Of a stretch of 64,000 nt of DNA, positions 44,980-64,000 are shown in pieces (the stretch's first letter is position 1; each line of letters begins with the position of its first letter). The notes beneath the pieces were generated by a model. It was not told where the DNA came from. It made no database searches and saw only the letters and a program-made list of their open reading frames with translations. The stretch comes from an uncultured Devosia sp. (lineage in GTDB: Bacteria; Pseudomonadota; Alphaproteobacteria; Rhizobiales; Devosiaceae), in contig NZ_CAJXJS010000018.1 of NCBI RefSeq assembly GCF_913055165.1, forward strand, positions 1 to 64,000, written 5' to 3'. The translations under genes were made by a program, and so were the position numbers.

Positions 44980-44982
44980 GTT

Positions 44983-47391: not shown

Positions 47392-47412
47392 CTGGTCGGT
47401 CCGGGTACAGGA

Positions 47413-49410
47413 TTACGCGAGAACGGATTGCATGAGATCGACGGGCGCCGCGTCGTGGGAGGTATCGGCGAGGGTGTAGTCCGGGGTGTCGGCCAAGATC
47501 TCGGAATGGTCGAGGAAGGCGACGACCTCGCTCACAAGGGCATCGGGCTCGTCGTCCTCACCCTGGGCCTCCAGGATATTGGCCTGGATGAGCACCGCAT
47601 CGGAATAGTGATTGCCGCCGACTTCGATGGTGTCGCCGAAGGTGTCATAGTCCTTGATGGCGGCGACATTGACCAGGGCGTTCGAGCCGGTGTCGATCTG
47701 CCATTCCGTGGCCGGCTGACCATCGAGAAAGGCCTTTTTCTGCAGGGCGACGAAGTCAGCATCGCCCAGGATATTGGTCTGCTCGATATAGCGCAGATCA
47801 TAGATGCTGCCGGAAACATAGAGCACCTTGGGGATGGAGACGCCTTCGAAGTCCGCCGATTTGTGAAAGCTTGTCGGCATGGACTTGTTGCCATTGGCGA
47901 GCCCATCCATGGCCGCCTGGTAGTGATCGGAAATACCCTGCTGCACGTCCGTGGCGCCGACATTGTGGATCGACGCCTGGTTCCAAAGCAGGTTGTTGCT
48001 GGTATTGAGGCTTCCGGAGGCCGAATAGGTGTCATCACCGGCGCCGAGCATGGCGATGGTGTCGTTGTCGTACAGGATGTTGTTCTGGATGATGATGTTG
48101 GCGTCGAATACATTGCCTCCGACCAGGATGAGGTCATAGAGCGAGCCGATATTGGCAAAGCTGACGCTGTTCAGCCCGATATTCTCGCCGCTGGTCACCA
48201 CTGCATTGGAGCCGGCGGCAGTCAGCACGCCGACGTCCTGATCGGACATGAAGGTCAGCTGCTTCATCCACTCCAGGAAGATGATGTCGCCCGAAACGAT
48301 GCTGATCTGCCAATTGACGGGGAATATCCCAGGATCGGCCTCGGCGGCCTCACCGGCGACATCGAGCGTTTCCTGAACGAAGCTGGCCATATTGACCGCC
48401 TCCGTGCCACCAGTCTTGGCCGCAAGGGGAAAGTCATCGCTGATCGTATCATTGTCGGCGTAGGAATTGGTCTGGATGATTGCGTCGAGCTGGTGGAAAT
48501 CACCGCCGACGACGAAATGCGTGCCGATCAGGCCGGCATTGACGACGGCCGCTTCGTTGACGAGAAAATTGCCGCCGGCCTTGTAAGTCACCGAGCCCTG
48601 GGTATCGTCACTTATGATCTGGAGATGCGCCTCGGGCTTGCCCGTGACCACAATCGTGTCCGCCGGGGTGGCGTCCTCGACCTCCGCCTGCAAATGCGCT
48701 GGCAGGGCTTCGGACAGCAGAGGATCCTCGTCCACCAGCTCTCCGTTGACATAGGTGCCGGTCAGGCCATCGACCTCGTGGAACTGTGTATCAGGACTGG
48801 ATTGATGCTGGAGCGTGGTTGCGTCAACAGCGTCCATTACCAGGGGCACATCCTCATGCCCCTCCATGCCCGGACCATTGGCAAGCGGACCCAGAACGGC
48901 GCCGCTGGCATACTGGAGCCCGAGAAGCCCCGCATCGGCGCCGGAATGATAGACTAGCGGTTCGTCGAGCGCGCCCATGACGAAGAGGTCATTGTCGGAC
49001 TGGGTGAGGGATTGCGAGATCAGCGCAATGACCGAGCCCGGCTCGGTGCCGATCAGCGGAACGACAATGTCACCAGGAGCGAAGGGCCAATGCGCAAGGG
49101 GCTTGTCAAAATCGGGGTGAGCAAAATTGGGAGCGCTTGGAAGGGCGATATGAACCGGCCCGAACAACGCTTCACCACGAATAGGGAAATCGGGCGGGGC
49201 GTAGTGGACGCCCGGGTCGTAGGCGCCCAGGGCATAGGCCTGGAGGACGTCTACCGAAATCTGCCGCATCTCGGGGGCCTGGGGAGCCGGATCACCATCG
49301 TGCTCGATCTGCTCGAGCTCAATCCGGACGCGCATGTCTTCCACCGCGATCTCGAAATAGCCGAGAAAGTGGACGACAATTTCTGAAATCGGATCGCTTG
49401 GAAAAAACAC
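47413..49410 (-). CDS. Putative type I secreted repeat protein (beta-solenoid-like)
   Basis: A 665-residue acidic protein without a signal peptide. A motif of the form GG-(N/D)-x6-(I/V)-I-Q-x-N-x-L-x-D-x-D-x-(I/V) recurs with variations near residues 297-318, 427-450, 530-552 and 595-618 (for example IIQNNILYDNDTI and YIEQTNILGDADFV). This regular Asn/Asp ladder suggests a beta-solenoid or calcium-binding surface. No RTX nonapeptide (GGxGxDxxx) is present. It sits 21 bases upstream of the exporter ATPase gene, so it is probably a substrate or surface partner. Similar rhizobial genes are simply called 'type I secretion protein'. Confidence 0.75.
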   Translation of the reverse strand: MFFPSDPISEIVVHFLGYFEIAVEDMRVRIELEQIEHDGDPAPQAPEMRQISVDVLQAYALGAYDPGVHYAPPDFPIRGEALFGPVHIALPSAPNFAHPDFDKPLAHWPFAPGDIVVPLIGTEPGSVIALISQSLTQSDNDLFVMGALDEPLVYHSGADAGLLGLQYASGAVLGPLANGPGMEGHEDVPLVMDAVDATTLQHQSSPDTQFHEVDGLTGTYVNGELVDEDPLLSEALPAHLQAEVEDATPADTIVVTGKPEAHLQIISDDTQGSVTYKAGGNFLVNEAAVVNAGLIGTHFVVGGDFHQLDAIIQTNSYADNDTISDDFPLAAKTGGTEAVNMASFVQETLDVAGEAAEADPGIFPVNWQISIVSGDIIFLEWMKQLTFMSDQDVGVLTAAGSNAVVTSGENIGLNSVSFANIGSLYDLILVGGNVFDANIIIQNNILYDNDTIAMLGAGDDTYSASGSLNTSNNLLWNQASIHNVGATDVQQGISDHYQAAMDGLANGNKSMPTSFHKSADFEGVSIPKVLYVSGSIYDLRYIEQTNILGDADFVALQKKAFLDGQPATEWQIDTGSNALVNVAAIKDYDTFGDTIEVGGNHYSDAVLIQANILEAQGEDDEPDALVSEVVAFLDHSEILADTPDYTLADTSHDAAPVDLMQSVLA

Positions 49411-49463
49411 GGAACACCTCCCATTTGCCCATCCGGCTGATAGCGGACCGGCTAAAATCAGAT

Positions 49464-49496
49464 GATCTGCGCGGTGGGGGCGCTACCGCGCAGATC
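49464..49496 (-). terminator. Hairpin/attenuator between the acidic repeat protein and the solenoid-like protein
   Basis: A perfect 12-bp stem GATCTGCGCGGT / ACCGCGCAGATC with a 9-base loop. On the minus strand ATCATCTGATTTT follows, so the T-run starts several bases late. It may be a leaky terminator or a 3' stabiliser, making more acidic protein than transporter. Confidence 0.7.
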
Positions 49497-49521
49497 CTTG
49501 GCAAGCGTTGGGGGCGCTCGC

Positions 49522-50715
49522 TTATGCGTCGTCGCTGCTGGAGTCGTTGTTCATGTGGTTGTTGCCGCCAACCACCGTCGCATCGACTGCGTTCTGCTGC
49601 AGGTTTGCACCAAGCACGACTTCCATGTTGAAGGCCGAACCGCTCACCGCTGCGCTGGCATCGGCGATGTTGCTGGCGGTGGAGTTGTTGCCGGCATCAC
49701 CTTCGAAGTCATTGTCATCGGCGTCAGCATCGTCCGCATAGGCATAAGCGTTGTACGTGCCGTTTGCGTTGTTCTGAACGTTGCTCAGCGAGTCGTTATC
49801 GACGATGTCTGCCACCTGGTTGATGGCAAAGCCGGTGTCGCCGCCGCCGCCCGAGAAGGCGCCATTGAAGACGTTCTCGAAGTTGACGTCATCACCTGGG
49901 TCGAATTCGAGCGAACCGCTGTTGATGAGCATATTGTCCAGCGTGGCGGTACCGATATCGAGGTCGGCGAAGTCGTCATCGGAATTGAACGAGCCGGTGG
50001 CATCGTCGTCGGACGAGTTGAACGAGTCCTCGATCTCCACATCGACATCCAGGTCGACATCGGCATCAATGTCGGTGGAGTTGTCGGTCGAGTTGTCGTT
50101 CATCGAGCCATTGACCGAATTGTTCGAGTTGTCGTTCATCGAGCCGTTGACCGACTTGTTGTTGGCAACGTCTTCGATGTCGGCATCCAGATCGACGTCG
50201 GTCGAATTGTCGTTGTAGGAGTTGGTGTTACCCACATCCTCAACTTCAACTTCGATGTCATCGATGGTGGTCGAATTGTCGGTCGAGTTGTCGTTCTGGG
50301 AGTTGGTGTTGGAGTTATCGTTCAACGAGTCATCCATGGCGAAGGCCAGGGATTGGTCACGATTGTCCGAGTTGTCGTTGTGCGAGTTGTTGTCTGAATT
50401 GTTATTCAGAGAGTCCTCGACCTCGACATCCAGATCGACATCGTTCTCGGTCGAGTTGTCGTTGTAGGAGTTGGAGTTTCCGGTGTCTTCAACGTCTATG
50501 TCGGCATCCACGTCCACATCGGTGTCGGTGGAATTGTCGTTATAGGAATTGGAGTTCCCCGAGTCCTCGACATCCACTTCGATATCATCGACCGTCGTCG
50601 AGTTGTCGGTCGAATTATCGTTATAGGAATCTTCGGGTTCGAAGTCGTCGAAGTCGTCGAAATTGACCGAGTTATCGGTCTGTCCGCCGCTGTTGTTGTT
50701 GAAGTCGTCAGCCAT
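49522..50715 (-). CDS. Asp/Asn/Ser-rich repeat protein, likely type I secreted
   Basis: A 397-residue, extremely acidic, cysteine-free protein. Residues about 30-240 repeat a unit SYNDNST(D/E) followed by alternating Asp-hydrophobic runs (DVDVDADIDVED); at least six units are seen. Residues 240-397 are a non-repetitive Gly/Asn/Ala/Asp-rich region ending in an acidic tail (NNDSSSDDA). No signal peptide is present, as for type I substrates. GAGGAG lies upstream of the ATG at 50715. The role is unknown; calcium binding, adhesion or matrix formation would fit the composition. Confidence 0.8.
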   Translation of the reverse strand: MADDFNNNSGGQTDNSVNFDDFDDFEPEDSYNDNSTDNSTTVDDIEVDVEDSGNSNSYNDNSTDTDVDVDADIDVEDTGNSNSYNDNSTENDVDLDVEVEDSLNNNSDNNSHNDNSDNRDQSLAFAMDDSLNDNSNTNSQNDNSTDNSTTIDDIEVEVEDVGNTNSYNDNSTDVDLDADIEDVANNKSVNGSMNDNSNNSVNGSMNDNSTDNSTDIDADVDLDVDVEIEDSFNSSDDDATGSFNSDDDFADLDIGTATLDNMLINSGSLEFDPGDDVNFENVFNGAFSGGGGDTGFAINQVADIVDNDSLSNVQNNANGTYNAYAYADDADADDNDFEGDAGNNSTASNIADASAAVSGSAFNMEVVLGANLQQNAVDATVVGGNNHMNNDSSSDDA

Positions 50716-51260
50716 AGTTACTCTCCTCAATGATAAATAATGGCTGAGCTACCAGGACCCCCTGTCATCTCGAATGGAGGTATGCTTGGTCGCTCATGAC
50801 TTGAAGGGCATACGCGAGATACGCAGATCGCTGGTGCCGTACGCAGAAACCGGTCAGCACGTATGAATCCAGAACCCAATTACCCAACGCGACGCAGCGA
50901 ATTTCGCATCGCAGGGTCAAGTATTGCTCGATAGGGAGAGAAGTATAGTTGCCACTTCAGCCTAGGCTGATCGGCCCAATCTTAATCTTATCGATTTAGA
51001 ACATCTGTTCGGTGCACTTCGGAGCTAGATCGTTTTCAATACCCTCAAGGAGGGATGAAACGGGCGTGTTTCTCCATCGAATGGCTGATTTCCGGCGGGG
51101 AAGCGCCACCACAGCTCAATCCATTGAATTAGTCTTGCCGGGGAACGAATCACGCCAGAGTCACGCCCCCGATGTTAACCTTTTGTCAACCTTGGGAGCG
51201 ATGGCACCAAGCAAAGCTGTGGGCCCCAAACACAGTAATCGCCGGGGAGGGAGTGGTAAA
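50716..51260. other. Long regulatory region between secretion and LuxR genes
   Basis: A 545-base divergent non-coding stretch. It holds a 12-base palindrome CAGCCTAGGCTG (50958-50969), a strong AAGGAGGG at 51047-51054 followed by a 25-codon open frame (51055-51132), and AT-rich segments near 50975-51000. Promoters for both directions must lie here. An in-frame GTG at 51066 could extend the LuxR protein, but the extension looks non-coding. Confidence 0.5.
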
Positions 51261-52106
51261 GTGCGTGAAAACCTTTATGACGGTCTGCGCGATCCGCAGC
51301 AGATCGAAGAACGGCCGTTGGACTCCGAGACACCGCGTCTCATTTTTGTTGCTCCGAAACAGACGATATATCAGTGCCTATGCGGTGCGCTGCAGGATCA
51401 CTTCCGGGAGGTCGAGGTTTTCCTTGTCGACCGGATAGATGATGGCCTTGGCCCCGACAATAATGTGAGACTGGTCTTGCTGGGGGCTGGCGCACGATCG
51501 ATCGGCCCCTCCTTCGTCGAGCAATGCCGGGTGCGGTTCCCGAAGGCGGCTATTGCGGTGGCCATCGATAGCGGACGTCCGGTCGTTGACCCGCTCGTGG
51601 TCGAACACCGTCTGATCCAGGGACTGCTGCCGACCACCCTGCCGCTTGATGTCTGGTTCGCCTTGATGCGGCTGGTCATGGCCGGCGGCGAGTATTTACC
51701 GCGTGAGTCTCAGAGCGCCGGCGGACATTTTGAGGCGCAGCAGCGCCTGTCGCCGCCGCCTGGACCAGTGGACAAGGCACCCACCCCTCCAGCGCCGAGA
51801 GCCAATGGCGCACAGTCAGCTGTGCGTGACCAGGGCAACGAAACCAGCGCCGAGAGCGGCCTTGACTCTCTGACCGCGCGGGAACGGGAAATCCTGACAC
51901 TGGTCTCGGAAGGCTATCAGAACAAGCTGATCGCCGATCGCATGGCGCTTTCCGAGCACACGGTCAAAGCCCATGTGCACAATCTCATCGCCAAACTCCG
52001 AGTGACCAATCGCACGCAAGCGGCGGCCTATCTGCATGAGCATCGCTCGGAGAGAGGAGGCGCTGTGACGGGACAAGACCACCGCCGCCGCGCCTATCCG
52101 GGGTAA
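51261..52106 (+). CDS. LuxR family regulator with degenerate receiver domain
   Basis: A 281-residue protein (GTG start at 51261, GGGGAGGGAG upstream). Residues about 20-150 resemble a receiver domain, but the phospho-acceptor position reads RLVLLGAGA, with no Asp. A Pro-rich linker leads to a LuxR helix-turn-helix (about 203-265: LTAREREILTLVSEGYQNKL, then IADRMALSEHTVKAHVHNLI). It is therefore probably phosphorylation-independent. It lies opposite the secretion genes and next to the polysaccharide genes and likely controls them. The start is uncertain by up to about 83 residues. Confidence 0.83.
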   Translation: MRENLYDGLRDPQQIEERPLDSETPRLIFVAPKQTIYQCLCGALQDHFREVEVFLVDRIDDGLGPDNNVRLVLLGAGARSIGPSFVEQCRVRFPKAAIAVAIDSGRPVVDPLVVEHRLIQGLLPTTLPLDVWFALMRLVMAGGEYLPRESQSAGGHFEAQQRLSPPPGPVDKAPTPPAPRANGAQSAVRDQGNETSAESGLDSLTAREREILTLVSEGYQNKLIADRMALSEHTVKAHVHNLIAKLRVTNRTQAAAYLHEHRSERGGAVTGQDHRRRAYPG

Positions 52107-52111
52107 GGACA

Positions 52112-52594
52112 ATGCCCAGCCTGGACAGGGTGCTCCAGCAGGTCGGCCAGTTGAACTATGTCTGGACCAATACAGAGAGCCTGTTCATCTATCTCATCGC
52201 GCATCTGGCCGGGACATCCAAGGATGCCGCGGTCATCATCTTTTTGACGCTGAACACAACGCGCGCGCGACTGGACCTGCTGGACCGGCTGGCCAAATTG
52301 CCTTCGACACCCGCGGCCACCCGTACCGCCGTACTGGATCTCACCGACCGCCTCAAGAAAGAAGCCAAGGTCCGGAACAAATATAACCATTGCATCTATT
52401 CATTCGACTCCAATGGTGAATTGAGCGGGACGCAATTAATGCGCATTGTCGAATTTGGCGATGAGTTGAAATACGGGAAATCCGAGGCCTTGGACGACAC
52501 AGAATTTGAGAGGGTGCAGTCGGCCATCAAGGCGATCACGGCAGTCAACAGAGACATGTGGGCCTTTTTTGCCGCAAGCGGCATAAGACCATAG
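52112..52594 (+). CDS. Conserved hypothetical protein
   Basis: A 160-residue, mainly helical soluble protein (LDRVLQQVGQLNYVWTNTES; LDLLDRLAKL; TDRLKKEAKVRNKYNHCIYS). No catalytic or binding motif was recognised. It starts 5 bases after the LuxR gene (AAGGAC ribosome site), so the two are co-transcribed and it may modulate the regulator. Function unknown. Confidence 0.75.
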   Translation: MPSLDRVLQQVGQLNYVWTNTESLFIYLIAHLAGTSKDAAVIIFLTLNTTRARLDLLDRLAKLPSTPAATRTAVLDLTDRLKKEAKVRNKYNHCIYSFDSNGELSGTQLMRIVEFGDELKYGKSEALDDTEFERVQSAIKAITAVNRDMWAFFAASGIRP

Positions 52595-52738: not shown

Positions 52739-53488
52739 ATGGGTACTCAAGCGCCGCACCAAATAACGGTAAAGCTGCTGGGCACCTGCTGTCTGATCGC
52801 GGACGGCACACTGGTTCAGGGCGTCCCTGCGAGTTTTTTTCGGATCGCCGCTTACCTTATCCTGTCCACGCCTGACCAAGTGCAGCCGCGGAGCCGGCTG
52901 GCGGCTTTGCTATGGCCCAATGCCGAGGACGGCAAGGCCGGCGCCAATCTGCGGCAAGCCGTCGCTCGTATCCGGCATCTGCAGGATCAGCAAGGCTTCC
53001 GGCTAATCGAAGCCAGTGTTTCCACCCTGCATCTGGCGCCAGGGCCCGAGGTCTATTGTGACCTGATCGAGATGATCCGCCATATCTCGGGCGATGTCAC
53101 CTACAGCCCCCATGCGCTGTGCAAGATCTACGGGGGCGAATTGCTGGCCGATCAGGGCAGCAGCAGTTCTGAATTCGAGGATTGGCTGTCATCCCGGCGA
53201 GATGAGCTATTGCTGCAGGCCGTGGACGGCATTGCCGAAGGCATCCACGCCGATGGCCAATACACGCAGAACGAGCGTTCCGCCTGCGCCCGCCGGCTGC
53301 TTGAGCTTGATCCATATCGTGAGGATGCGGTGCGGGTATTGATGGCCGAGGCGGCCGAACGGCGGCACTTCGTTCGCGTCAGCGAACTCTACGCGTCAAT
53401 GCGCTCGGTGCTTGCGGACGATCTGGGCGTGGAGCCCAGTCCCGAAACACGGGCGCTCTATACCAGCCTGATGGAGGCGGTCCGCTAA
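52739..53488 (+). CDS. SARP-like transcriptional activator with BTAD domain
   Basis: A 249-residue protein. Residues about 8-95 form an OmpR/SARP-type winged helix (VKLLGTCCLIADGTLVQGVP; ALLWPNAEDGKAGANLRQAVARIR). Residues about 105-245 form a bacterial transcriptional activation (BTAD) domain made of TPR-like helices, ending GVEPSPETRALYTSLM. GGAGGG precedes the ATG. Such regulators in Hyphomicrobiales often sit beside exopolysaccharide or secretion genes. Here it lies between the LuxR regulator and the xylanase/polysaccharide genes and probably activates one of these. Confidence 0.88.
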   Translation: MGTQAPHQITVKLLGTCCLIADGTLVQGVPASFFRIAAYLILSTPDQVQPRSRLAALLWPNAEDGKAGANLRQAVARIRHLQDQQGFRLIEASVSTLHLAPGPEVYCDLIEMIRHISGDVTYSPHALCKIYGGELLADQGSSSSEFEDWLSSRRDELLLQAVDGIAEGIHADGQYTQNERSACARRLLELDPYREDAVRVLMAEAAERRHFVRVSELYASMRSVLADDLGVEPSPETRALYTSLMEAVR

Positions 53489-53503: not shown

Positions 53504-54634
53504 TCAAGCGAACGCGGTCAGAATTGCATTATGCATGGGCTTAGCCTGCCATTCCCGGTCGTAGGGCAGGCCGCGATTGGCGCTGCTTCTTTGCGTGCGC
53601 AACCAGGAATGGCTGTCATTCAACCCCCAGGTGCTGACACCCAGCACATTGTTGAACTGCAGCACGATATCGAGGTAGCGGCGGGTTTCATCTGCCACGA
53701 GAGAGTCGCGCCTCTCCACGGAAAGGCCGGTATTGGCTTCGGCTACATCAAGCTCGGTGATCGCAACCTTGAGCCCCATATTGCGGATGTCGCGCATCAG
53801 CCCATAGATGCCGTCAGCATAGACAGTGCCCTTGCGCAGATCCAGATGTGCCTGCAGGCCGACTGTATCGACCGGGGCACCGCGGGAGCGCAGCCGCTCA
53901 AGCAGGCGCAAGAGTGACAGACGACGCTGCCCCTCATAGCCGCTATTATACTCCAGCCCATATTCATTGATGACCATGCGTGCGCGCGGGGCTCGGGCAC
54001 GAGCCGATTCCAGCGCGCGCTCGATGTAATCCTCCCCAAAGGCCTTGTAGAACTGATTGTTCCGCAGGCCCCTACCCCCGTGATTGGGTTCGATTGGCTC
54101 GTTTATCACGTCCCATTCGCGAACCTGGTTGCCATAACGGCCAATCACTTTTGAGAAATGGTCGTCGATGATCGCCCAGTCCCGGCTGGAGGCGAGCGCA
54201 GATGCCGCCCAGGACGGCAGGCTCTTGTGCCAAAGCAACGTGTGGCCACGCATGGCCAGGCCATTGCGGGCAGCAAAGCTGGCGAGCTGGTCCATCTCGC
54301 TGAAATTGTAGGTCCTGCCGGGAGCCAAGGCGTCCCATTTCATCGCCCATTCCGGTGTGATGGTGGAGCAATCCCGCACCACAATCGAGCGCAGACGACT
54401 GTCGCCGAGCGTGCCGGCCTGAATGGCCGCGCCGAAATAGAGCCCACGTGACGAGGCCGCCGAACGCAGAGCGCGGACGGGCGGGGGCGTGGCCGGGCGA
54501 GGCTGACGGGCAGGGGCCTGATCAGGACTGGTGGTTACCGAACCGGTCTCGGTTCGATCGACGCGGGCACAGCCGACCAATTGGCCCACAGTGAGCGCTG
54601 CCGCGGCCCCCACGATCAAGTTCCGACGCTTCAC
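53504..54634 (-). CDS. GH10 endo-1,4-beta-xylanase, predicted lipoprotein
   Basis: A 376-residue GH10 enzyme. The N-terminus (MKRRNLIVGAAAALTVGQ) leads to a lipobox LVGC (Cys22), so it should be membrane-anchored. The acid/base Glu is in WDVINEP (about 177-183) and the nucleophile Glu in AITELDVAEAN (about 292-296). The start is GTG at 54634, with GGGGAGG upstream. It lies opposite a xylan-binding-module-like protein and next to UDP-xylose synthesis genes, so it may trim or edit an endogenous polymer as well as digest plant xylan. Confidence 0.93.
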   Translation of the reverse strand: MKRRNLIVGAAAALTVGQLVGCARVDRTETGSVTTSPDQAPARQPRPATPPPVRALRSAASSRGLYFGAAIQAGTLGDSRLRSIVVRDCSTITPEWAMKWDALAPGRTYNFSEMDQLASFAARNGLAMRGHTLLWHKSLPSWAASALASSRDWAIIDDHFSKVIGRYGNQVREWDVINEPIEPNHGGRGLRNNQFYKAFGEDYIERALESARARAPRARMVINEYGLEYNSGYEGQRRLSLLRLLERLRSRGAPVDTVGLQAHLDLRKGTVYADGIYGLMRDIRNMGLKVAITELDVAEANTGLSVERRDSLVADETRRYLDIVLQFNNVLGVSTWGLNDSHSWLRTQRSSANRGLPYDREWQAKPMHNAILTAFA

Positions 54635-54846
54635 TTCTGCCTCCCCGAATCGTCCACCGGCTATCCCCTGGGAGAAAAAATGACGGAATGGCCAGACCAG
54701 GGCAATTAGTCAGAACTGTCTAGATCGTTGTATTAATGGCGGCAATTAAGTTCAAAAGCTACAGTATTGTCAGGATAGAGGCGATCTATGCGGGAGATTT
54801 TCTGCATACGCTTTGTGATACGTGCGTTTATTAGTGGTGAGTCAAG

Positions 54847-55494
54847 ATGTTGAAGATATCACAAGTAGTATTGGCAAAAATCCTGGGCGCCTCGACTGCG
54901 CTCTCCATGTTGGCAATCTTGCCGGCGATGGCCGATTCGCTGATCGTCGTTTCGATTGCCGGAGAAGCGTATGACGGCCCGCCAAGCTTTGATCTTTTGA
55001 TCAATGACAAGGTGATTGGCAGCGGGACGCTGACCCGGGCAATCAGCACGGAGAGTGACGGACGCCTGTTCACCAAGCCGCGGCCAAATTCCTTCCTCGA
55101 ACAATTCTCGTTCACCATCCCGGACACGGCGCTCATGCCGGATTCCGAGATCAGCCTGGTGCTGACCAATGACAAGTTCACGCGTCAGGAAGGGCTCGGC
55201 GAGGATGGTGTGTTGGACCGCAATCTGTTCATCGATTTCGTGCGTGTGAATGATATCGAAATCACCTCGGCGGAGATGGTGCTGATCCACGATGGCGACG
55301 AGGTGCACTACAATTATCAGGCCGGCCTGCTACCCATATATGAGGCCGGATATCGCGCCGTCGTCCGGCCGCCAGAAGGTGGTTGGATGGCTGGTGGCGC
55401 GGACGAAGTCGCCAAGGTTGGCATGGTGGATATTCCCCTGCCGGTTCCTCGCCCCAAGGACCTGACCCTCGGCGTCGGCCTGGTGCAGCAATGA
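54847..55494 (+). CDS. Secreted protein with xylan-binding (CBM60/CBM36-like) domain
   Basis: A 215-residue exported protein. The signal peptide (about 1-29, ending PAMA) precedes a domain with [20 protein letters not shown] and, later, [10 protein letters not shown], resembling the calcium-dependent xylan-binding modules of the CBM36/60 type. The C-terminal tail is Pro-rich. Its TGA overlaps the next ATG by 4 bases (ATGA), so it belongs to the polysaccharide operon. The divergent GH10 gene supports a xylose-containing ligand. Confidence 0.75.
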
Positions 55495-56573
55495 GCGCCC
55501 GGCATAAAACGACCGGGCAGGTACGCGAGGAGCGCGCCGGCCGCAGGATAGCTGCGCCCAAATCCATCTGCGTGACAGGTGGGGCGGGCTTTCTGGGCTC
55601 GCATCTGTGCGCCCGCCTGATCGGGGAAGGTCACCGGGTTACCTGCATCGACAACTTCCACACCGGCCGCCCGGCCAACGTCGCCGCCCTGGCGCGCAGC
55701 AACCGGTTCGAACTGGTCGAGCATGATGTGTTGGATGCCCTGCCCGACCAGTTGCCCTCCTTTGACGAGATCTACAACCTGGCCTGCCCGGCCTCACCGG
55801 TGCACTATCAGAGCGACCCTGTGCGGACCGCGCTGATCTGCGCAGAAGGGGCGGCCAATGTGCTGTACCGGGCTGACAGGGACGGGGCGCGAGTGATGCA
55901 TGCCTCAACCTCAGAGGTCTATGGCGACCCCGAAGTGCACCCCCAGCGTGAAGACTATTGCGGCAATGTGAACACGGTCGGGCCGCGCTCCTGCTACGAC
56001 GAAGGCAAGCGCTTTGCCGAGACCTTGATCACCGACTTCGCTCGGCAGACCGGTGTGGTGGTCAAGATTGTCCGCATCTTCAACACTTACGGCCCGCGCA
56101 TGCAACCCGACGATGGGCGGGTGGTGTCGAATTTTATCCTCCAGGCCCTGCGCGGCGAGGACATCACTGTCTATGGAGAGGGCCAGCAGACGCGTTCTTT
56201 CTGTTATGTCGACGATCTGATCGAAGGTTTCGTACGCCTGATGGCCTCGGGGCCGGAGGTCGAAGGCCCGGTCAATATCGGCAATCCGGCGGAAATCAGC
56301 GTTGGCGAACTGGCCCGGATCGTCATCGAGATGACCGGCTCGACCTCAAGGATCGTCCACAAGCCCCTGCCGGTCGACGACCCTCGCAGGCGCCGCCCCG
56401 ACATTACCCGCGCCAGCAGCCTGCTGGGCTGGATGCCGCGTGTCCCGCTGGCTGAAGGGCTGGCCAAGACCATCCGTTATTTCGCCCGGCTCGACACTAG
56501 CCCGTCGGCGTCCATCCAAAGTCAGCCCGGCGTTGCGCCGGTCCCGCGGAGCCAGGCCGCGGTCTCTATCTAG
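55491..56573 (+). CDS. uxs: UDP-glucuronate decarboxylase (UDP-xylose synthase)
   Basis: A 360-residue extended SDR. Cofactor motif [10 protein letters not shown] (about 27-36), catalytic YDEGKRFAE (Tyr169, Lys173), and the family segments [13 protein letters not shown] and YGDPEVHPQ(R/K)EDYCG are characteristic of UDP-glucuronate decarboxylases. It converts UDP-glucuronate to UDP-xylose. The start at 55491 overlaps the preceding gene by 4 bases. The adjoining UDP-glucose dehydrogenase supplies its substrate. Confidence 0.9.
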
Positions 56574-56602
56574 TTTCAGTCAGTCAGTGTGAGTACAAGA
56601 CC

Positions 56603-58030
56603 ATGCGCCTTATTATCATCGGTTCGGGATATGTCGGTTTGGTATCGGGCGCATGCCTAGCTGAGTTGGGACACCATGTGCTGTGCGTGGACAATGATCC
56701 GGCCAAGATCGAACAGCTGCAGGCTGGCCAAATACCCATTTACGAACCGCAACTGACCGAGACGATCACGCGTAATGTGGCCCGGGGACGCCTTGGATTC
56801 ACCAGCAGGCTACCGGCTCTCGGGCGTGAGATTCACGCCGTAATGGCCGCCGTTGGCACCCCGCCGCAGGCCAATGGCAGCGCCGACCTTTCCGCCATCT
56901 TCGCCGTTGCCCAGGAGATCGCGGAGAAAGCGACCCATCCGCAGATGCTGATTATCAAGTCCACCGTGCCGGTGGGCACGGGGGATCGCGTACAAGCCCT
57001 GTTGCAGCGGGCGCGCCCCGATATGCGGTTCTCGGTGATTTCCAATCCCGAATTTTTGCGCGAAGGTTCGGCAATCGAGGACTTCATGGCACCGGACCGC
57101 ATCATCGTCGGTGCCGGAGACGAAACGGCGCGCAATACCCTGCGGGCGCTCTATGCCCCGCTTGAACAGCTAGGGACGCCGGTGGTCTGCATGGGCCGGC
57201 GCGAGGCCGAACTGGTCAAGTGCGCCGCCAATGCCTTCCTGGCAACCAAGATCGCCTTCATCAATGAGTGTGCAGACCTTTGCGAGGCCGTGGGCGCCGA
57301 TGTCGGAGAAGTCGCTCACGGGATCGGGCTCGATAGCCGGATTGGGGAAGCATTCCTGCAGGCGGGGCCGGGCTATGGCGGATCGTGCTTTCCCAAGGAC
57401 ACTTCAGCGCTCCTGGCCATCGCCCAGGAGCATGGCGTCAATTTGCGACTGGTGGAAACCGTCATCGGCGCCAATGAGGCACGCAAGCGCGCCATGGGCC
57501 GCCGGGTAACACGTGCCGCGGGCGGCAGTCTCAATGGCCGGGTCGTGGGGGTACTGGGGCTGACCTTCAAGCCCAACACCGATGATATGCGGGACTCTCC
57601 GTCGCTGGCGCTGATCGAGACGCTGCAACGGGCGGGCGCCAAAGTGCAGGTCTTCGATCCGCAGGGTATGGCCGGCGCACGGTTCCGGCTGCGCACTGTC
57701 CGGTTCACAGATGACGCCTATGCCTGCGCTGAAGGCGCCGATTGCCTGGTTCTATCCACCCACTGGCCGGAATTCGCGGACCTCGATCCCAACAGACTGG
57801 CCGGGCAGATGCGCGGCAAGGTGATCGTGGACTTGCGCAATTTCCTTAAGGCACAGGCCTTTGTCGAGGCCGGCTTCTCGGTTCACGCCGTCGGCCGCCC
57901 GGCGGAACATCCGCGGCGGAAGCAATCGACCGAGGTGCGACCGGCCCAGAAGTGGCGCCAGCGGGAGCCGGCGCTCAACGGCGCCGCGCCTGGGTCTGCG
58001 GCGGCGCTGCACAGCGGCATCGCCGGGTAG
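56603..58030 (+). CDS. ugd: UDP-glucose 6-dehydrogenase
   Basis: A 475-residue NAD-dependent dehydrogenase that oxidises UDP-glucose to UDP-glucuronate. The Rossmann motif IIGSGYVGLVSG (about 3-14), the catalytic Cys in GPGYGGSCFPKDT (about 262) and the C-terminal UDP-binding part (GLTFKPNTDDMRDSP) are all present. The last 45 residues are an extra Arg/Ala-rich tail. It follows uxs by 29 bases. Confidence 0.94.
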   Translation: MRLIIIGSGYVGLVSGACLAELGHHVLCVDNDPAKIEQLQAGQIPIYEPQLTETITRNVARGRLGFTSRLPALGREIHAVMAAVGTPPQANGSADLSAIFAVAQEIAEKATHPQMLIIKSTVPVGTGDRVQALLQRARPDMRFSVISNPEFLREGSAIEDFMAPDRIIVGAGDETARNTLRALYAPLEQLGTPVVCMGRREAELVKCAANAFLATKIAFINECADLCEAVGADVGEVAHGIGLDSRIGEAFLQAGPGYGGSCFPKDTSALLAIAQEHGVNLRLVETVIGANEARKRAMGRRVTRAAGGSLNGRVVGVLGLTFKPNTDDMRDSPSLALIETLQRAGAKVQVFDPQGMAGARFRLRTVRFTDDAYACAEGADCLVLSTHWPEFADLDPNRLAGQMRGKVIVDLRNFLKAQAFVEAGFSVHAVGRPAEHPRRKQSTEVRPAQKWRQREPALNGAAPGSAAALHSGIAG

Positions 58031-58055
58031 GAGCGGCCCAAGGAAGGGGGAAGCC

Positions 58056-59558
58056 ATGGAGATCGGCGCCCATACATTGTCGCTGCTGGTGGTTGGCGCC
58101 TTTTGCGCGGTGCAGATCGCCTATGCTCTCTCGCAGGCGGTCGATCTCTACTTCTTCACGCGCCCCGTCAATTGGGTGGATCCGAACGAGGCCCGGTCTC
58201 TGCCCGCAGACGACTACCCCTATATCGTCCTGTTCTATCCGGTGCTGCGCGAGCTCGAATCGACCATGCGCACCACATTTCTCAGCCTGGGGCAGTTGGA
58301 CTATCCCAAACACAAATACAGCGTGGTCGCCATACCCAATGCCGACGACGCTTTCACTGTGCGCTCGCTGAGGCGGCTGCAGAAGGAGTTCCCGTTCCTG
58401 CAGATTATTGAGGTACCGCCCACCTCGCACAAATCCTGGCTGGTGGTCTGGAAGGCCTGGGATCGCTGCCAGAAAGCCTATTGGTGGCATAAGGGCAAGT
58501 TGGCCCAAAACCGCAACCTGCCGCCCAAGAAGACACGGCAGTTGATCTACGCCTTCTACCAGATCGCCGATCGGGTGATGACCCACCAGGATTTCCTGGT
58601 CAACTATATAGACGCCGATAGCTGCCCGCCGAGTGACCATTTCCTGGCCGCAGCCGCTGGCATGCGCCACTACGATGTGCTCCAGGCGCAGAATATTGCC
58701 GGAAATCTCAACTCCAGCTGGGCGGCCAGCTGGCATGCCTTTGACCACATGGCCTGGGACGGCTCGAAGTATCCGCACCTGTCCGCCAATGGGAAGCACC
58801 CCTACTGGGTGCTGGGGAAAGGCTTGTTCTTCCGCGCGTCTGACTTGATCTCCCTGGGTGGTTTTCACCCCTGGCTCACGATCGAGGATCCGGAAGTGGG
58901 CATGCGGTTCTGGACCAATGGCAAGCGGCTGGGGGTCATTGAAAACCCCCTGATTGAAGAGGTGCCGCTCACCTTTGCGCACGGGATCACGCAGCGCAAA
59001 CGCTGGGTCGCCGGGTTCTTCCAAAGCCTGACCTATCCGCTCAAAGCCATGGGCATGCCATGGCCGGCACGGTTCAAGGCCTGGCTCAACTTTCTGCCCT
59101 GCCTGTCGCTGTCACTCAATTCGGTGGGCATCCCGCTGGGCATTTGGGCCAGCTGGGCGGCATGGACCGGTCATAACCTGCTGCCAGACTGGGCCATCGT
59201 GTTGTCTCTGGCCAATCTGGCCGCTTTCGGTCTGTCGATGAGCGCACTCTATGTGCGCACCTGGCGCCGCTCCGCGCTGGTACTACCCCGCCACAAGGAC
59301 CGGCTGCGCTATCTCTTCCGGGTCAACCCGGTGTTCATCATGGCCTGGTGGCTGGTCTGGCTGATCCCGCTCTGGATCGGGTTCCGCATGTTCCTGCTCA
59401 ACGAAGGCCTTGTCTGGGAACGCACCGAAAAGACCGACGCGAACCACGACCTGGTGCGGGTGGCGCGTGGGAAACGGCCGAGTCCGGTGACCAAGGCGGC
59501 GCCCGCCAAAATTGCCACCATCTCACCCCTGCAGTCAGGGGCAGAAAAATCCCTATGA
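58056..59558 (+). CDS. Processive membrane glycosyltransferase (GT2)
   Basis: A 500-residue membrane protein. One N-terminal helix (about 6-28) leads to the catalytic domain with NADDA (about 93), YIDAD (about 184-188), the TIEDPE acid/base region (about 272-277) and QRKRW (about 311-315), which fits the Q(Q/R)xRW signature of processive beta-glycosyltransferases. At least three further helices follow (about 340-470). The start at 58056 has AAGGAAGGGGG upstream; the longer frame overlaps ugd. The sugar it polymerises is unknown; UDP-xylose or UDP-glucuronate are candidates from context. Confidence 0.88.
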   Translation: MEIGAHTLSLLVVGAFCAVQIAYALSQAVDLYFFTRPVNWVDPNEARSLPADDYPYIVLFYPVLRELESTMRTTFLSLGQLDYPKHKYSVVAIPNADDAFTVRSLRRLQKEFPFLQIIEVPPTSHKSWLVVWKAWDRCQKAYWWHKGKLAQNRNLPPKKTRQLIYAFYQIADRVMTHQDFLVNYIDADSCPPSDHFLAAAAGMRHYDVLQAQNIAGNLNSSWAASWHAFDHMAWDGSKYPHLSANGKHPYWVLGKGLFFRASDLISLGGFHPWLTIEDPEVGMRFWTNGKRLGVIENPLIEEVPLTFAHGITQRKRWVAGFFQSLTYPLKAMGMPWPARFKAWLNFLPCLSLSLNSVGIPLGIWASWAAWTGHNLLPDWAIVLSLANLAAFGLSMSALYVRTWRRSALVLPRHKDRLRYLFRVNPVFIMAWWLVWLIPLWIGFRMFLLNEGLVWERTEKTDANHDLVRVARGKRPSPVTKAAPAKIATISPLQSGAEKSL

Positions 59559-59586
59559 GGCATGTGTCAATGTAAGGAGTAAACAT

Positions 59587-60726
59587 ATGGCCAAAGGTCA
59601 CGTTCTGGTCACCGGGGGAGCCGGCTTCATCGGCTCACATCTGGTCGATTTGCTGCTGGCGCAAGGCTTTGAGGTCACCGTGCTCGATTGCCTGCTTGAG
59701 CAGGTGCATGGTGATGCCGAGCGGGACGCAGATGGCTGGCCGGTCTATCTCAATCCAGGCGCCCGGCGCATCCATGGCAATATCCTGGATGACGGTGTGT
59801 TCGAAAGCGCCCTGACTGGCATCACCCATCTGGCCCATCTCGCCGCTTCGGTGGGTGTCGGGCAGAGCATGACCAATATTGTCGACTACACGCGCAACAA
59901 CACCATGGCCGCCGCGATCATGCTGGAGGTACTGTCGCGGACCCAGCACACGGTCCGGCGGATGGCTGTTGCTTCGTCCATGTCGATCTATGGTGAGGGA
60001 CAATATGTGGAGGCATCGAGCGGGCGCGCCGTCACCCCCTCGATGCGCGACCATGCGCAACTCAAAGAGCACCGCTGGGAGCTGGACGACCGGGGCAACG
60101 CGCTGCTGCCCATCCCAACCAGCGAGGACAAATTGCTCCAGCCCGCCTCGATCTATGCCGTCAACAAGCGCGATCACGAAGAGATGTTTCTTTCCGTCGG
60201 ACGGGCACTGGAAATACCGACAATAGCCTTGAGGCTATTCAACGCCTATGGGTCGCGCCAGGCACTGAGCAATCCCTACACTGGGGTTGCTGCCATATTC
60301 ATTTCCCGCCTGCTCAACGACCAGTCGCCCATCATCTTTGAGGATGGGGAGCAAAAGCGCGACTTCGTGCATGTTCTGGACGTTGCCAATGCCTTTGCCG
60401 GCGTACTCGAAAGCGATCTTGAGGTCTGGGAGGCCTGTAATGTTGGCAGCGGTCAGGCCCGCACCGTCAACGAGATTGCCAGGACGCTTGCCCGTCTCCT
60501 GCACAAGAACATCGCCCCAACCATACTCAACCAATATCGCGTCGGCGACATCCGGCATTGCTTCGCCGATACCAGCAAGCTGGAGAGGCTGTTCGGCATC
60601 AGGCCGAGGCAAGACTTCGAAGCGGGAATGCGCCAGCTGATCGAGTGGGTAGAGACCGTCAATCGTCCGCAGGATCGCTCACAGCAGTCGCTGTCGGAAC
60701 TGACGCGGAGTCGGCTCGTGGTCTAG
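59587..60726 (+). CDS. NAD-dependent sugar-nucleotide epimerase/dehydratase
   Basis: A 379-residue extended SDR. Cofactor motif GGAGFIGSHLVD (about 9-20) and catalytic YAVNKRDHEE (about 191-200) are clear. The segment resembles dTDP-L-rhamnose 4-epimerase and UDP-glucose 4-epimerase relatives; the substrate is not certain. The start at 59587 (MAKGHVLVTGG) is preceded by AAGGAG. It closes the polysaccharide gene set, 28 bases after the GT2 gene. Confidence 0.85.
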   Translation: MAKGHVLVTGGAGFIGSHLVDLLLAQGFEVTVLDCLLEQVHGDAERDADGWPVYLNPGARRIHGNILDDGVFESALTGITHLAHLAASVGVGQSMTNIVDYTRNNTMAAAIMLEVLSRTQHTVRRMAVASSMSIYGEGQYVEASSGRAVTPSMRDHAQLKEHRWELDDRGNALLPIPTSEDKLLQPASIYAVNKRDHEEMFLSVGRALEIPTIALRLFNAYGSRQALSNPYTGVAAIFISRLLNDQSPIIFEDGEQKRDFVHVLDVANAFAGVLESDLEVWEACNVGSGQARTVNEIARTLARLLHKNIAPTILNQYRVGDIRHCFADTSKLERLFGIRPRQDFEAGMRQLIEWVETVNRPQDRSQQSLSELTRSRLVV

Positions 60727-60981
60727 GATCGCAGCTTGTCGTGGTGTCGGGAATGGCTGGATTGCGCTTCAGGTGCCATGCCCATAAACACCGATGCGAT
60801 CTACGAAATCTACTCTCATTTTTAATTTCGTAACCCGGCTTTAATGCTTCCCGCGTCTCATCGGACCGTCCGGACAGGTCTATGGGGAGCAGGCAGTTTT
60901 GAACGGCGAGCAGAACACTTGTGCCTCGGACTCGGGATGGGTCGAATCCGCCCGGACAAAGACCGGCCGGATGGACGCACT
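60727..60981. other. Intergenic region before the PAS-GGDEF gene
   Basis: A 255-base stretch with an AT-rich part (60810-60835) that may hold a promoter. The downstream reading frame is open from 60826, so part of this could be coding if an upstream start (60844 or 60937) is used. No terminator with a U-tract was seen. Confidence 0.35.
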
Positions 60982-63900
60982 ATGACGCTGCCCTACCCAA
61001 ACCGCTCCAGAATGCGCCGTTGGCTGCGCTCCACGCAGGCGCAGGGCTCCGTTATGTCGACGGGAACCGCGCTGCAGACAGCCACGACATCGCCTGGTCC
61101 AGCCAAAGATTTCGGCGAGGGGGGCGGACGCTGGAATTTTGCCTTCGAGAGCACCGGCCAAGGCATCTGGGACTGCGATATTCCGAGCAACACCGTCTAC
61201 TACTCGCGCATGTGGCGGCTCATGCGGGGGTTCGATGCCGACGAGGTCGTCGACAGTTCCTTCGACGCGTGGATGGAGCGGGTGCATCCGGACGATCGAG
61301 CCCTCGTGCTTGAGGAGATGCGCAAGCAAAATTCACCCGACATTCGGCAGAACGCCTTCGAATATCGGGAACGTCATCGGGCCGGGCACTATATCTGGAT
61401 CCTGAGCCTGGGCGCAGCGATCGAATGGGGGCCAGACGGCAGGCCAACCCGCATGATCGGCACGGACACGGACATCACTGCCCGCAAGATGGCAGAGATG
61501 GAGAAACTGCACCTGTCGCGTCGGCTGGAACTGGCACTGGATTCGTCCTGGGATGGCGTGGTCACGCTGGACCTCGAGACCATGGCGGTGGTGCAGAGCA
61601 ACAAGTCATTCGCGAAAATGCTGCAGCGGTCCCCCGAGGAAGTGGTCGGGATGCACCCCTGGGAATACGTCGATGCCACCCGAGAGGAAATCCTCGATTT
61701 CCTGGAGACGACCAGTGCCCAGGATGGCAATGCGGGACTGATCAGCGCACGGTTCAAGCGCAAATGCGGGGACCCGATTGATACCGAGGTCAGCCTCTCC
61801 TTCTTTGAGGCCGCCAACCGGCGCTTTGCCTATTGCACGGTCCGCGACGTCACCGAAAGCAACCGCACCAAGCTGGCCCTCAAGGAAGCGACCGAGTTGC
61901 GCCGCGCGGCAGTGGAAGCGTCACACCAGGGCATTCTGCTGGTAGAAATGGACGGGCATACCATTACCCAGGCCAACCGCGCCTTCGCCGACATGCTCAA
62001 CCTGCCCCAGGATGCGGTGACGGGCCAATGCCTCTGGACATGGGCTGACGAGGACGAGGCGACCGCATTGCGCCAATTGCTGTCCGACAGCGCCGATGAG
62101 CCAACGGCCCAACTGCTCAGGCGCGAAGCCACGTTGCGACGGCAGGATGGACGCACCATCGCCGTGGACATCAAGACGAGCATGATCGAGGTCGGCGGCG
62201 ACCGCTATTGTCATCTGGTCGTGACCGACATGACAGCAAGCCGGGCCGCGGCGTCTGCGCTCAAGCGGAGCGAGACCCGATTCCAGGCCATGTTCGAGAA
62301 TACGCGCCGTCATATCGGCCTGCTCGAGCCGGATGGTCGATATATTGAGGCTAATCCGGCCTATTACGCTTTTCTGGGGCTGACACCCGGTCAGCTCGGG
62401 AATTTGCGCTTCTGGGATGGTGACCAGTGGCAGAGTGAGGAAGAGCGCGAGGCCGTCAAGTCAGCGGTTCATCGCGCAGCCAGCGGCGAATATGTGCAAC
62501 TTAAGGTCCGTCACCAAGGCAGGGACGGCACCATCCGCGTCAGCGACCTGAGCATAGCTCCGATTGCAGATGACTGCGGCGCGATCGTCCAGCTGATGAC
62601 CGAGGCCACTGATATCACCGCGCTCGAGCAGGCCAAATCCGACCTGGAGCAGAGCGAGCGGCGTTGGAACCACGCGCTGGAAAGCGCCGGCCAAGGCGTG
62701 TGGGAATGGGAGATACACAAACCCCAGACACAGGGTTCCCGCCGGTGGAAGGAAATGCGGGGCTATGCACCGGACGAGGACATCGACTTCACTTTTGATG
62801 GATGGCTCTCGCGCGTACATCCCGAGGATCAGGACAGGCTGCGGCGGATCATTGAAGAGCAGGCCAACAACGCTCAAGAATTCAACACGTTCGAATATCG
62901 CGAACGGCATAAGCAGGGCCACTATATCTGGATCAACAGCGTTGGCGCTGCGGTAGAGTGGGATGCTGATGGTACGCCGATCCGACGCACCGGAACGGAC
63001 ACTGATATCACCGAGCGCAAGATGGCCGAGCAAAAGGTGCTCGACCTGTCACGCCGGCTTTCGCTCGCTTTGGAGGCCTCACAATTCGGCGTTTTCGAGC
63101 TGAAGCTGGATAGCGGCGAAGTGCTGTGGGACGACAAGCTGTGCGAGATGGTGGGGGTCGCCCGCGATCCGACCTCAATGCAGTTGACCGATTTGCTGGG
63201 CGCCATGCACCCGGACGATGTGGCCAAGACCATCCTGGCGCTCCAGCGCGCTGAAGAGGATGGCAGTTTCGAAATGGAATCCCGCTTTATCAGGACCGAT
63301 GGCGTGGTGCGAACATTGCGCTCGCGCGGGGCGCGCTTTGAGGACGAACACCAGGAGCCCCGACTGATCGGCGTATTCTGGGACGTGACCGAGGAAGTGG
63401 CCCTGACGCACAGCCTGCAGGCGGCCAAGGAGCTGGCGGAGAGCCGCAATGCCGAGCTCCTACATGCCAAGGAGCGCATCGAAAACCAGTCCCTGCACGA
63501 TGCGCTGACCGGTCTGCCGAACCGACGCTATCTGGACAAGATCCTCAAGCGTCACGCAGCAGGTTCGCCGTCATCGGGCGCCATGGCGCTGTTGCATATC
63601 GACCTGGATGGCTTCAAGCAGATCAACGATACACTCGGCCACCTGGCGGGCGACGCCATGCTCGTGCATGTGGCGGAACTCCTGCGTGACAATATCGGGC
63701 TGAGCCGTTTTGCCGCCCGAGTGGGCGGCGACGAGTTCATTGTTGCCTGTCCCGGTGAAACCGATACGCAAGGGCTTCTGGCGCTGGCCAACCAGCTGAT
63801 CGACAAGATCCGGCAACCGGTGCCCTATCAGGGACACCAGTGCAGGTTTGGCGCCAGCATCGGTATTGCCGTCGAGGCTGATGACCCCTTTGACGCACAA

Positions 63901-64000
63901 CGCGTACTGATCAATGCCGATGTGGCGCTCTATCAGGCCAAGGGCCGGGGGCGAAACCGCTGCGAGTTCTTCTCTGAGGCCCTGCAGGCCGAAATTGCGG
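60982..64000 (+). CDS. Multi-PAS sensor diguanylate cyclase, 3' end outside the window
   Basis: An open frame that runs off the window, about 1006 residues visible. It shows six PAS-type units, starting near residues 51, 181, 308, 433, 561 and 693, then a GGDEF domain from about 835 (SLHDALTGLPNRRYL) with an intact RVGGDEF active site at about 911-917. Units 1 and 5 are near copies (FEYRERH-(R/K)-xGHYIW and GTDTDIT). It has no membrane helix in this part. An EAL domain may follow. Start candidates are 60937, 60982, 61012 and 61054; none has a strong ribosome site. Confidence 0.88.
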   Translation, partial: MTLPYPNRSRMRRWLRSTQAQGSVMSTGTALQTATTSPGPAKDFGEGGGRWNFAFESTGQGIWDCDIPSNTVYYSRMWRLMRGFDADEVVDSSFDAWMERVHPDDRALVLEEMRKQNSPDIRQNAFEYRERHRAGHYIWILSLGAAIEWGPDGRPTRMIGTDTDITARKMAEMEKLHLSRRLELALDSSWDGVVTLDLETMAVVQSNKSFAKMLQRSPEEVVGMHPWEYVDATREEILDFLETTSAQDGNAGLISARFKRKCGDPIDTEVSLSFFEAANRRFAYCTVRDVTESNRTKLALKEATELRRAAVEASHQGILLVEMDGHTITQANRAFADMLNLPQDAVTGQCLWTWADEDEATALRQLLSDSADEPTAQLLRREATLRRQDGRTIAVDIKTSMIEVGGDRYCHLVVTDMTASRAAASALKRSETRFQAMFENTRRHIGLLEPDGRYIEANPAYYAFLGLTPGQLGNLRFWDGDQWQSEEEREAVKSAVHRAASGEYVQLKVRHQGRDGTIRVSDLSIAPIADDCGAIVQLMTEATDITALEQAKSDLEQSERRWNHALESAGQGVWEWEIHKPQTQGSRRWKEMRGYAPDEDIDFTFDGWLSRVHPEDQDRLRRIIEEQANNAQEFNTFEYRERHKQGHYIWINSVGAAVEWDADGTPIRRTGTDTDITERKMAEQKVLDLSRRLSLALEASQFGVFELKLDSGEVLWDDKLCEMVGVARDPTSMQLTDLLGAMHPDDVAKTILALQRAEEDGSFEMESRFIRTDGVVRTLRSRGARFEDEHQEPRLIGVFWDVTEEVALTHSLQAAKELAESRNAELLHAKERIENQSLHDALTGLPNRRYLDKILKRHAAGSPSSGAMALLHIDLDGFKQINDTLGHLAGDAMLVHVAELLRDNIGLSRFAARVGGDEFIVACPGETDTQGLLALANQLIDKIRQPVPYQGHQCRFGASIGIAVEADDPFDAQRVLINADVALYQAKGRGRNRCEFFSEALQAEIA

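Follow-up and report, generated by a model that had tools for sequence, protein, structure and literature searches.

Gene content of the locus

A putative polysaccharide locus of six genes was analysed in the first 64,000 nucleotides of contig NZ_CAJXJS010000018.1 from an uncultured Devosia sp. (the window). The genome was Devosia-type, and the top matches of the GT2 glycosyltransferase encoded at the locus were found in D. indica, D. marina and D. subaequoris at 86-88%. The reading frames of all six genes were present at 53504-60726, with the GH10 gene on the minus strand and the other five on the plus strand in the order CBM60-fold protein, UXS, UGD, GT2 and epimerase (Table 1). An earlier note on this DNA had described such a set of genes side by side, with a CBM-like gene overlapping uxs; all reading frames were recovered, and reading by eye placed the overlap at 55491-55494, where the stop codon of the CBM gene and the start of uxs share the letters ATGA. 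Neither BcsB nor BcsC was present among the six genes, and no outer-membrane exporter was found there. The six-gene neighbourhood is more than a chance arrangement, because the same neighbourhood recurs in other families and phyla.

Table 1. Features of the six-gene locus and of its flanks in the window.
Feature	Position	Strand	Basis or remark
GH10 lipoprotein, 376 aa, presumed editing hydrolase	53504..54634	-	Pfam, catalytic Glu pair, tree; lipobox by eye
Exported CBM60-fold protein, 215 aa, presumed Ca-dependent xylan binding	54847..55494	+	Pfam, model fold; signal peptide by eye
UDP-xylose synthase (UDP-glucuronate decarboxylase), 360 aa	55491..56573	+	Pfam, PDB sequence matches
UDP-glucose 6-dehydrogenase, 475 aa	56603..58030	+	Pfam, NCBIfam
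Processive-type GT2 synthase, 500 aa, QRKRW, distinct family	58056..59558	+	Pfam, alignment, model, tree
Extended SDR, predicted nucleotide-sugar 4-epimerase type, 379 aa	59587..60726	+	Pfam, locus comparison
Upstream module: HlyD-type and ABC exporter, LuxR-type regulator, 160-aa protein, BTAD regulator	43645-52594 and 52739-53488		
Multi-PAS GGDEF protein	60844-64000, running off window end		Directly downstream of epimerase

Predicted proteins of the locus

UDP-glucose 6-dehydrogenase (UGD) and UDP-xylose synthase (UXS) together give UDP-xylose. The UGD protein carried three Pfam UGD domains. The UXS protein had a Pfam SDR match and matched UXS1 (2b69) in the PDB at 2e-105, while the next non-UXS entry was a UDP-glucose 4-epimerase at 2.9e-39 and the matches to UDP-apiose/xylose synthase (UAS) and ArnA were at 9.5e-26 and 4.5e-21, respectively. 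By these sequence matches, the uxs product is firmly assigned as a UDP-xylose synthase rather than UAS or ArnA. The product of the sixth gene matched the Pfam SDR epimerase family and was of the 4-epimerase type.

The GT2 protein matched PF13632 only (E 1e-25), with no PilZ domain among its Pfam matches. The Q(Q/R)xRW signature of processive synthases claimed in the earlier note was confirmed as QRKRW, and Q313, R314, R316 and W317 were invariant in 24 aligned family members together with D98, D186/D188 and E277/D278 of the D, DxD and ED motifs. The NCBIfam CelA score was 21.3 bits against a cut-off of 699.1, which places the protein outside the BcsA family, and the best PDB sequence match reached only E 0.036. 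The structural model (pLDDT 83.4) had BcsA (E 6e-12) and hyaluronan synthases as best Foldseek matches. A GT2 tree was built from the 24 family members and 26 relatives' GT2s, and its four references of known product, Escherichia coli BcsA and PgaC and Sinorhizobium meliloti ApsS and BgsA, did not extend to curdlan synthase or plant Csl proteins; the gene taken as BgsA was located by its position and its 35% identity to BcsA. The 24 members formed one clade, set off by a long branch and nearest to relatives' GT2s of undescribed product. They grouped with none of BcsA, PgaC, ApsS or BgsA, a result that speaks neither for nor against xylan, and the places of ApsS and PgaC are unsure because of their very long branches.

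GH10 enzymes cut beta-1,4-xylan backbones. The GH10 domain of the window was matched in Pfam at E 6e-78 (262.6 bits, cut-off 22.1), Glu was present at the alignment columns of Cex E127 and E233, and a lipobox, LVGC, was read by eye. Cex, named there as an exo-beta-1,4-glucanase, was the second-best PDB match. The column of Cex N44, a minus-2 subsite residue, held W, I or F in the GH10s of the loci, and a special minus-2 subsite was considered and dropped since most other GH10 rows also had this residue replaced.

CBM60 modules bind xylan with calcium. The match of the exported protein to CBM60 (PF16841) was at E 5e-6 with 27.3 bits, 0.9 below the cut-off of 28.2, so that the assignment from sequence is marginal. 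In the AlphaFold2 model (pLDDT 75.7, with residues 1-25 and 184-215 below 50), the only PDB structure matches with E <1e-3 were vCBM60 2xhh and 2xfd, with TM scores of 0.67 and 0.66 by target length and 0.39 and 0.35 by query length. The model thus predicts a CBM60 fold, and a signal peptide was read by eye.

Distribution among genomes

A contig scan with five GT2 rows and two peptide patterns, which was not exhaustive, produced 20 loci. Together with the window, a plasmid of Rhizobium sp. BG4 and two further class-sample genomes, 24 loci were compared (window, L032, L036-L055, L078 and L079), spanning Devosia, other alphaproteobacteria, Eremiobacterota and one actinobacterium. The GT2 family was found in 3/385 genomes of the class sample and 4/37 of the genus sample, the own genome included in both; the order's 24 other genomes had no family member, with E 1.5e-11 as their best match.

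An epimerase of this type was present in 23 of the 24 loci and adjoined the GT2 gene in 21, while those of L051 (43% identical) and L079 (49%) were further from it and the 6.7-kb contig of L047 had none. UGD was present in 17 loci. A full-length GH10 was found in 16 loci, three of which (L032, L042 and L045) had two copies. The contigs of L040, L053 and L054 end within the locus. No GH10 was found in the L048 stretch, and a GH10 of the locus clade described below was on another contig, of 4.6 kb, of that genome (Aurantimonas, L090). In the actinobacterium Allobranchiibius (L055), the GT2-UXS-UGD-epimerase set was likely acquired by horizontal transfer, since its GT2 nests among alphaproteobacterial rows.

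Remnants of the CBM (7202-7411) and GH10 (12834-12911) genes flank an otherwise open UXS-UGD-GT2-epimerase run in L041. A gene of the BcsS family (cellulose biosynthesis) adjoins GH10 at L050:12476-13267, L051:12664-13392 and L052:12476-13267, the last by homology; these three loci belong to Eremiobacterota and Brevundimonas.

Association of the GH10 protein with the GT2 synthase

The GH10 tree, built by a quick method with no bootstrap, contained 41 rows, namely 19 locus rows and 22 others, with duplicates used once (L036-L038 as L059-L061, and L080-L083 as L067, L058, L063 and L057). The 19 locus rows formed one clade with an SH-aLRT of 99, and the only one of the 22 other rows inside it was L090, whose Aurantimonas genome has the GT2 as well. 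Across 16 loci, with one GH10 copy picked by hand for the three two-copy loci, the matrix of GT2 distances correlated with that of GH10 distances at r 0.86 with 0/5000 permutations as high, a value that would also follow from plain co-inheritance and is by itself no proof of interaction. For gene presence, 19 of 61 genomes had GH10 matches at E <=0.001 and only those at E <1e-60 were counted (13 genomes, 8 in the genus); the six uncounted matches (G001, G002, G004, G021, G024 and G034) covered about 80/311 positions at E 2.5e-5 to 9.8e-4, and two of them exceeded the Pfam cut-off. In the genus sample, GH10 was thus counted in 4/4 GT2-positive genomes against 4/33 GT2-negative genomes (one-sided p 0.001).

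Since the GH10s of the loci stand in a GT2-tied clade of their own, the GH10 protein probably belongs to the synthesis system and is not a stray digester of plant xylan. It is very improbable that it is an ordinary plant-xylan digestion gene lying by chance beside a polysaccharide locus. In favour of such a digestion gene, GH10 is a xylanase family and the gene is on the opposite strand, and L036-L038, the closest Devosia loci, have a transporter operon in place of the PAS-GGDEF gene of the window. Past the epimerase of L036 (D. indica), the minus strand carries genes for a BadF-type ATPase, a NanE-type epimerase, two ATP-binding cassette (ABC) permeases, a solute-binding protein, an ABC ATPase and an RpiR/SIS regulator, and the same gene clusters were found at L037 and L038; from its gene content, this is a sugar-uptake operon adjoining the locus. 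However, it lies on the far side from GH10, its NanE gene is more in keeping with amino sugars than with xylose, and at this place the window has the PAS-GGDEF gene, so the operon was not counted to the system. In addition, all four GH10s of GT2-negative Devosia genomes adjoin polysaccharide biosynthesis genes; those of G014, G023 and G030 adjoin a Wzy-type O-antigen ligase, with a flippase and a UbiA gene also in G014. Plant-xylan catabolism was rejected on account of the GT2-linked clade and these four GH10s. The earlier proposal that the GH10 enzyme may edit a self-made polymer is partly supported, in that the conserved set and the separate clade favour a role in synthesis over digestion.

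Devosia genome G012 (L112:1471-8655) has a GH10, a SpoIIE/HAMP regulator gene, a BcsA-like GT2 and a CBM60 protein grouped together. This GT2 was 28% identical to E. coli BcsA and distant from the window GT2, and the CBM60 protein exceeded the Pfam cut-off.

A plasmid survey gave 77 records with a GH10 match, and eight neighbourhoods besides BG4 were viewed. Four (Rhizobium leguminosarum, R. tumorigenes, Nostoc and Methylosinus) were annotated polysaccharide biosynthesis clusters and two (Sphingomonas and Streptomyces) had a catabolic look, while the Mesorhizobium GH10 lay between a sugar ABC transporter and a nucleotide-sugar dehydrogenase and the Azospirillum record was unannotated. With biosynthesis genes in both Devosia and plasmid neighbourhoods, the placement of GH10 within biosynthesis clusters is a wider pattern.

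Proposed polysaccharide system

Overall, the locus is best read as one for a pentose polymer of the bacterium's own making with a dedicated GH10, and a xylan backbone is likely. More specifically, the locus may encode a synthase-dependent, xylose-rich, beta-1,4-xylan-like exopolysaccharide system with a dedicated GH10 editor, at a rough probability of 0.55, where the backbone (xylose, arabinose or mixed) is what we infer. From family-level knowledge, UGD would convert UDP-glucose to UDP-glucuronate and UXS would convert UDP-glucuronate to UDP-xylose. The GT2, as a BcsA-like processive membrane synthase judged by motif, fold and neighbours, would build a beta-1,4-xylan-like chain from pentose units, pushing it across the inner membrane. 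The 4-epimerase-type SDR probably acts on part of the UDP-xylose, perhaps giving UDP-L-arabinopyranose for substitution, or it would supply another donor. The secreted CBM60-fold protein would hold the nascent chain, and the membrane-anchored GH10 would trim or release chains, by analogy with BcsZ for cellulose. In favour of this reading are the recurrence of the gene set, the GH10 clade with its GT2 correlation and presence counts, the two modelled folds, BcsS beside GH10 in three loci and the second, distant GT2-CBM60-GH10 grouping of G012.

Besides the sugar-uptake operon and the effect of co-inheritance described above, several observations weigh against this reading. The GT2 clade has no member with a known product, and the TM scores of the GT2 model to the BcsA entries were modest, at 0.41-0.55 when taken by query length. 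The constancy of the epimerase among the loci suggests that its product, and not UDP-xylose alone, is a substrate of the system. UXS was present in 19/24 loci and not in L043, L044, L047, L053 and L078, of which L047 is a short cut contig; elsewhere in the four of these genomes that were searched, a 60-61% match was found for L044 and L078, only a 39% match for L043 and none for L047. The GH10 of L041 is reduced to a 26-residue remnant and its CBM is broken, the 714-aa protein of L079 has only part of a GH10 domain (36.8 bits) and falls outside the locus clade on a very long branch, and no GH10 was found anywhere in the genomes of L055 and L078 (2/24 loci). The earlier expectation that the gene set is kept together held for GH10, UXS, UGD, GT2 and the epimerase, which recur beyond Devosia, but not for the CBM60 protein, which was present in only 6/24 loci (window, L036-L039 and L042), all of them Devosia or the Hyphomicrobiales locus L042. 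The locus counts are also not independent because the loci share ancestry. Finally, deletion of the GH10 gene prmN of a Sphingomonas exopolysaccharide cluster had no visible effect (PMC11340318). CBM60 as a general partner was dropped, as the CBM alignment matched only 2/385 class-sample genomes, the own genome included.

A beta-glucan or hetero-chain made by the GT2, with pentose as decoration or belonging to a neighbouring pathway and with a GH10 that cuts beta-1,4-glucosyl bonds, is unlikely. The fold nearest to cellulose synthase, the match to Cex with its glucanase name and the five loci with UXS outside are in keeping with such a chain, but UGD and UXS accompany the GT2 in most loci and the six genes include no second glycosyltransferase for side chains.

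A broader proposal takes the GT2 family as a beta-1,4-xylan synthase of bacteria that comes with its own source of UDP-xylose and a GH10 dedicated to editing, in a cassette passed between phyla. This proposal is tentative from the present sequences and stands somewhat short of even odds.

A xylan-like polymer would mean that bacteria make a hemicellulose of the plant type with a single synthase enzyme, and this route would be a simple one in which to study xylan synthesis and to design materials. In that case, some genomic GH10 'xylanases' would be biosynthetic and not signs of plant-biomass digestion, and the reading of GH10 genes in ecology and annotation would change.

Flanking genes

The upstream module also holds genes for a 665-aa repeat protein and a 402-aa Asn/Asp-rich protein, both without a Pfam match. 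The 665-aa and 160-aa genes were found in the same 13/61 relatives, only 4 of them with the GT2, and in the nine relatives with the module but without the GT2 the genes beyond the module mostly differed. The module (type I secretion, LuxR-type regulator and 160-aa protein) was therefore rejected as a part of the system and treated as separate. With the multi-PAS GGDEF gene downstream, a cyclic di-GMP link of the locus is possible. GGDEF-EAL genes were also observed near L032 and L039.

Comparison with known systems

The closest characterised analogue is the APS locus of S. meliloti, uxs1-uxe-apsS-apsH1-apsE-apsH2, which is regulated by CuxR and cyclic di-GMP and whose product is described as arabinose-containing (PMC7902896). 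Its operon order uxs1-uxe-GT2-DUF995-GH26 follows the same logic as the Devosia locus, with a UXS 65% identical, a dedicated epimerase, one GT2 and a synthase-linked glycoside hydrolase. However, its GT2 was only 21.6% identical over 176 aa and its GalE-type epimerase 26%, it has GH26 and DUF995 where the Devosia locus has GH10 and CBM60, and no GH10, CBM60 or UGD match was found in the 22-kb S. meliloti stretch. Identity with the APS locus was rejected, as the low identities and the GH26 do not support orthology of ApsS, Uxe and the hydrolase.

This analogue bears on an arabinose-type polymer, in which the SDR would make UDP-L-arabinopyranose from UDP-xylose, the GT2 would polymerise mainly arabinose as in S. 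meliloti and the GH10 would act on a minor xylose part. Such a polymer is doubtful: it would fit the shared operon logic and the epimerase as the most constant partner of the GT2, but not the differences in gene content and identity listed above, nor the general knowledge of GH10 on beta-1,4-xylan. The epimerase is nevertheless the strongest doubt on xylan, being the most constant partner and having an analogue with an arabinose-containing product, and 'pentose polymer' is a safer term than 'xylan' because the GH26-bearing S. meliloti system makes an arabinose-containing polymer.

No description of a xylan synthase from bacteria, or of a locus combining GT2, UXS and GH10, was found in the open-access library searched, which mostly lacks subscription papers. 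Xylose has been described in the exopolysaccharide of UV-exposed cyanobacteria, where 'xylan-like' is only a conjecture (PMC12555021). The promonan cluster of Sphingomonas LM7 resembles the Devosia locus in having a GH10, prmN, inside an exopolysaccharide biosynthesis cluster, and differs in its Wzx/Wzy pathway with several glycosyltransferases and no single synthase (PMC11340318).

Bacterial cellulose synthesis (BcsA-BcsB-BcsZ-BcsC, and clostridial CcsA-CcsZ) shares with the locus a processive-type GT2, whose nearest solved fold is BcsA, and a cognate hydrolase, and BcsS adjoins GH10 in some of the 24 loci. Where a hydrolase is linked to a synthase, it tends to fit the polymer that is made. 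In contrast to the cellulose systems, the Devosia GT2 has no PilZ match, the six genes are without BcsB and BcsC, the hydrolase is GH10 and not GH8 or GH5, and the locus has its own UDP-pentose supply. Clostridial CcsZ is the cognate hydrolase of the cellulose synthase CcsA (PMC7710045), and the Devosia locus is a new form of this already known arrangement of a GT2 synthase with a cognate hydrolase.

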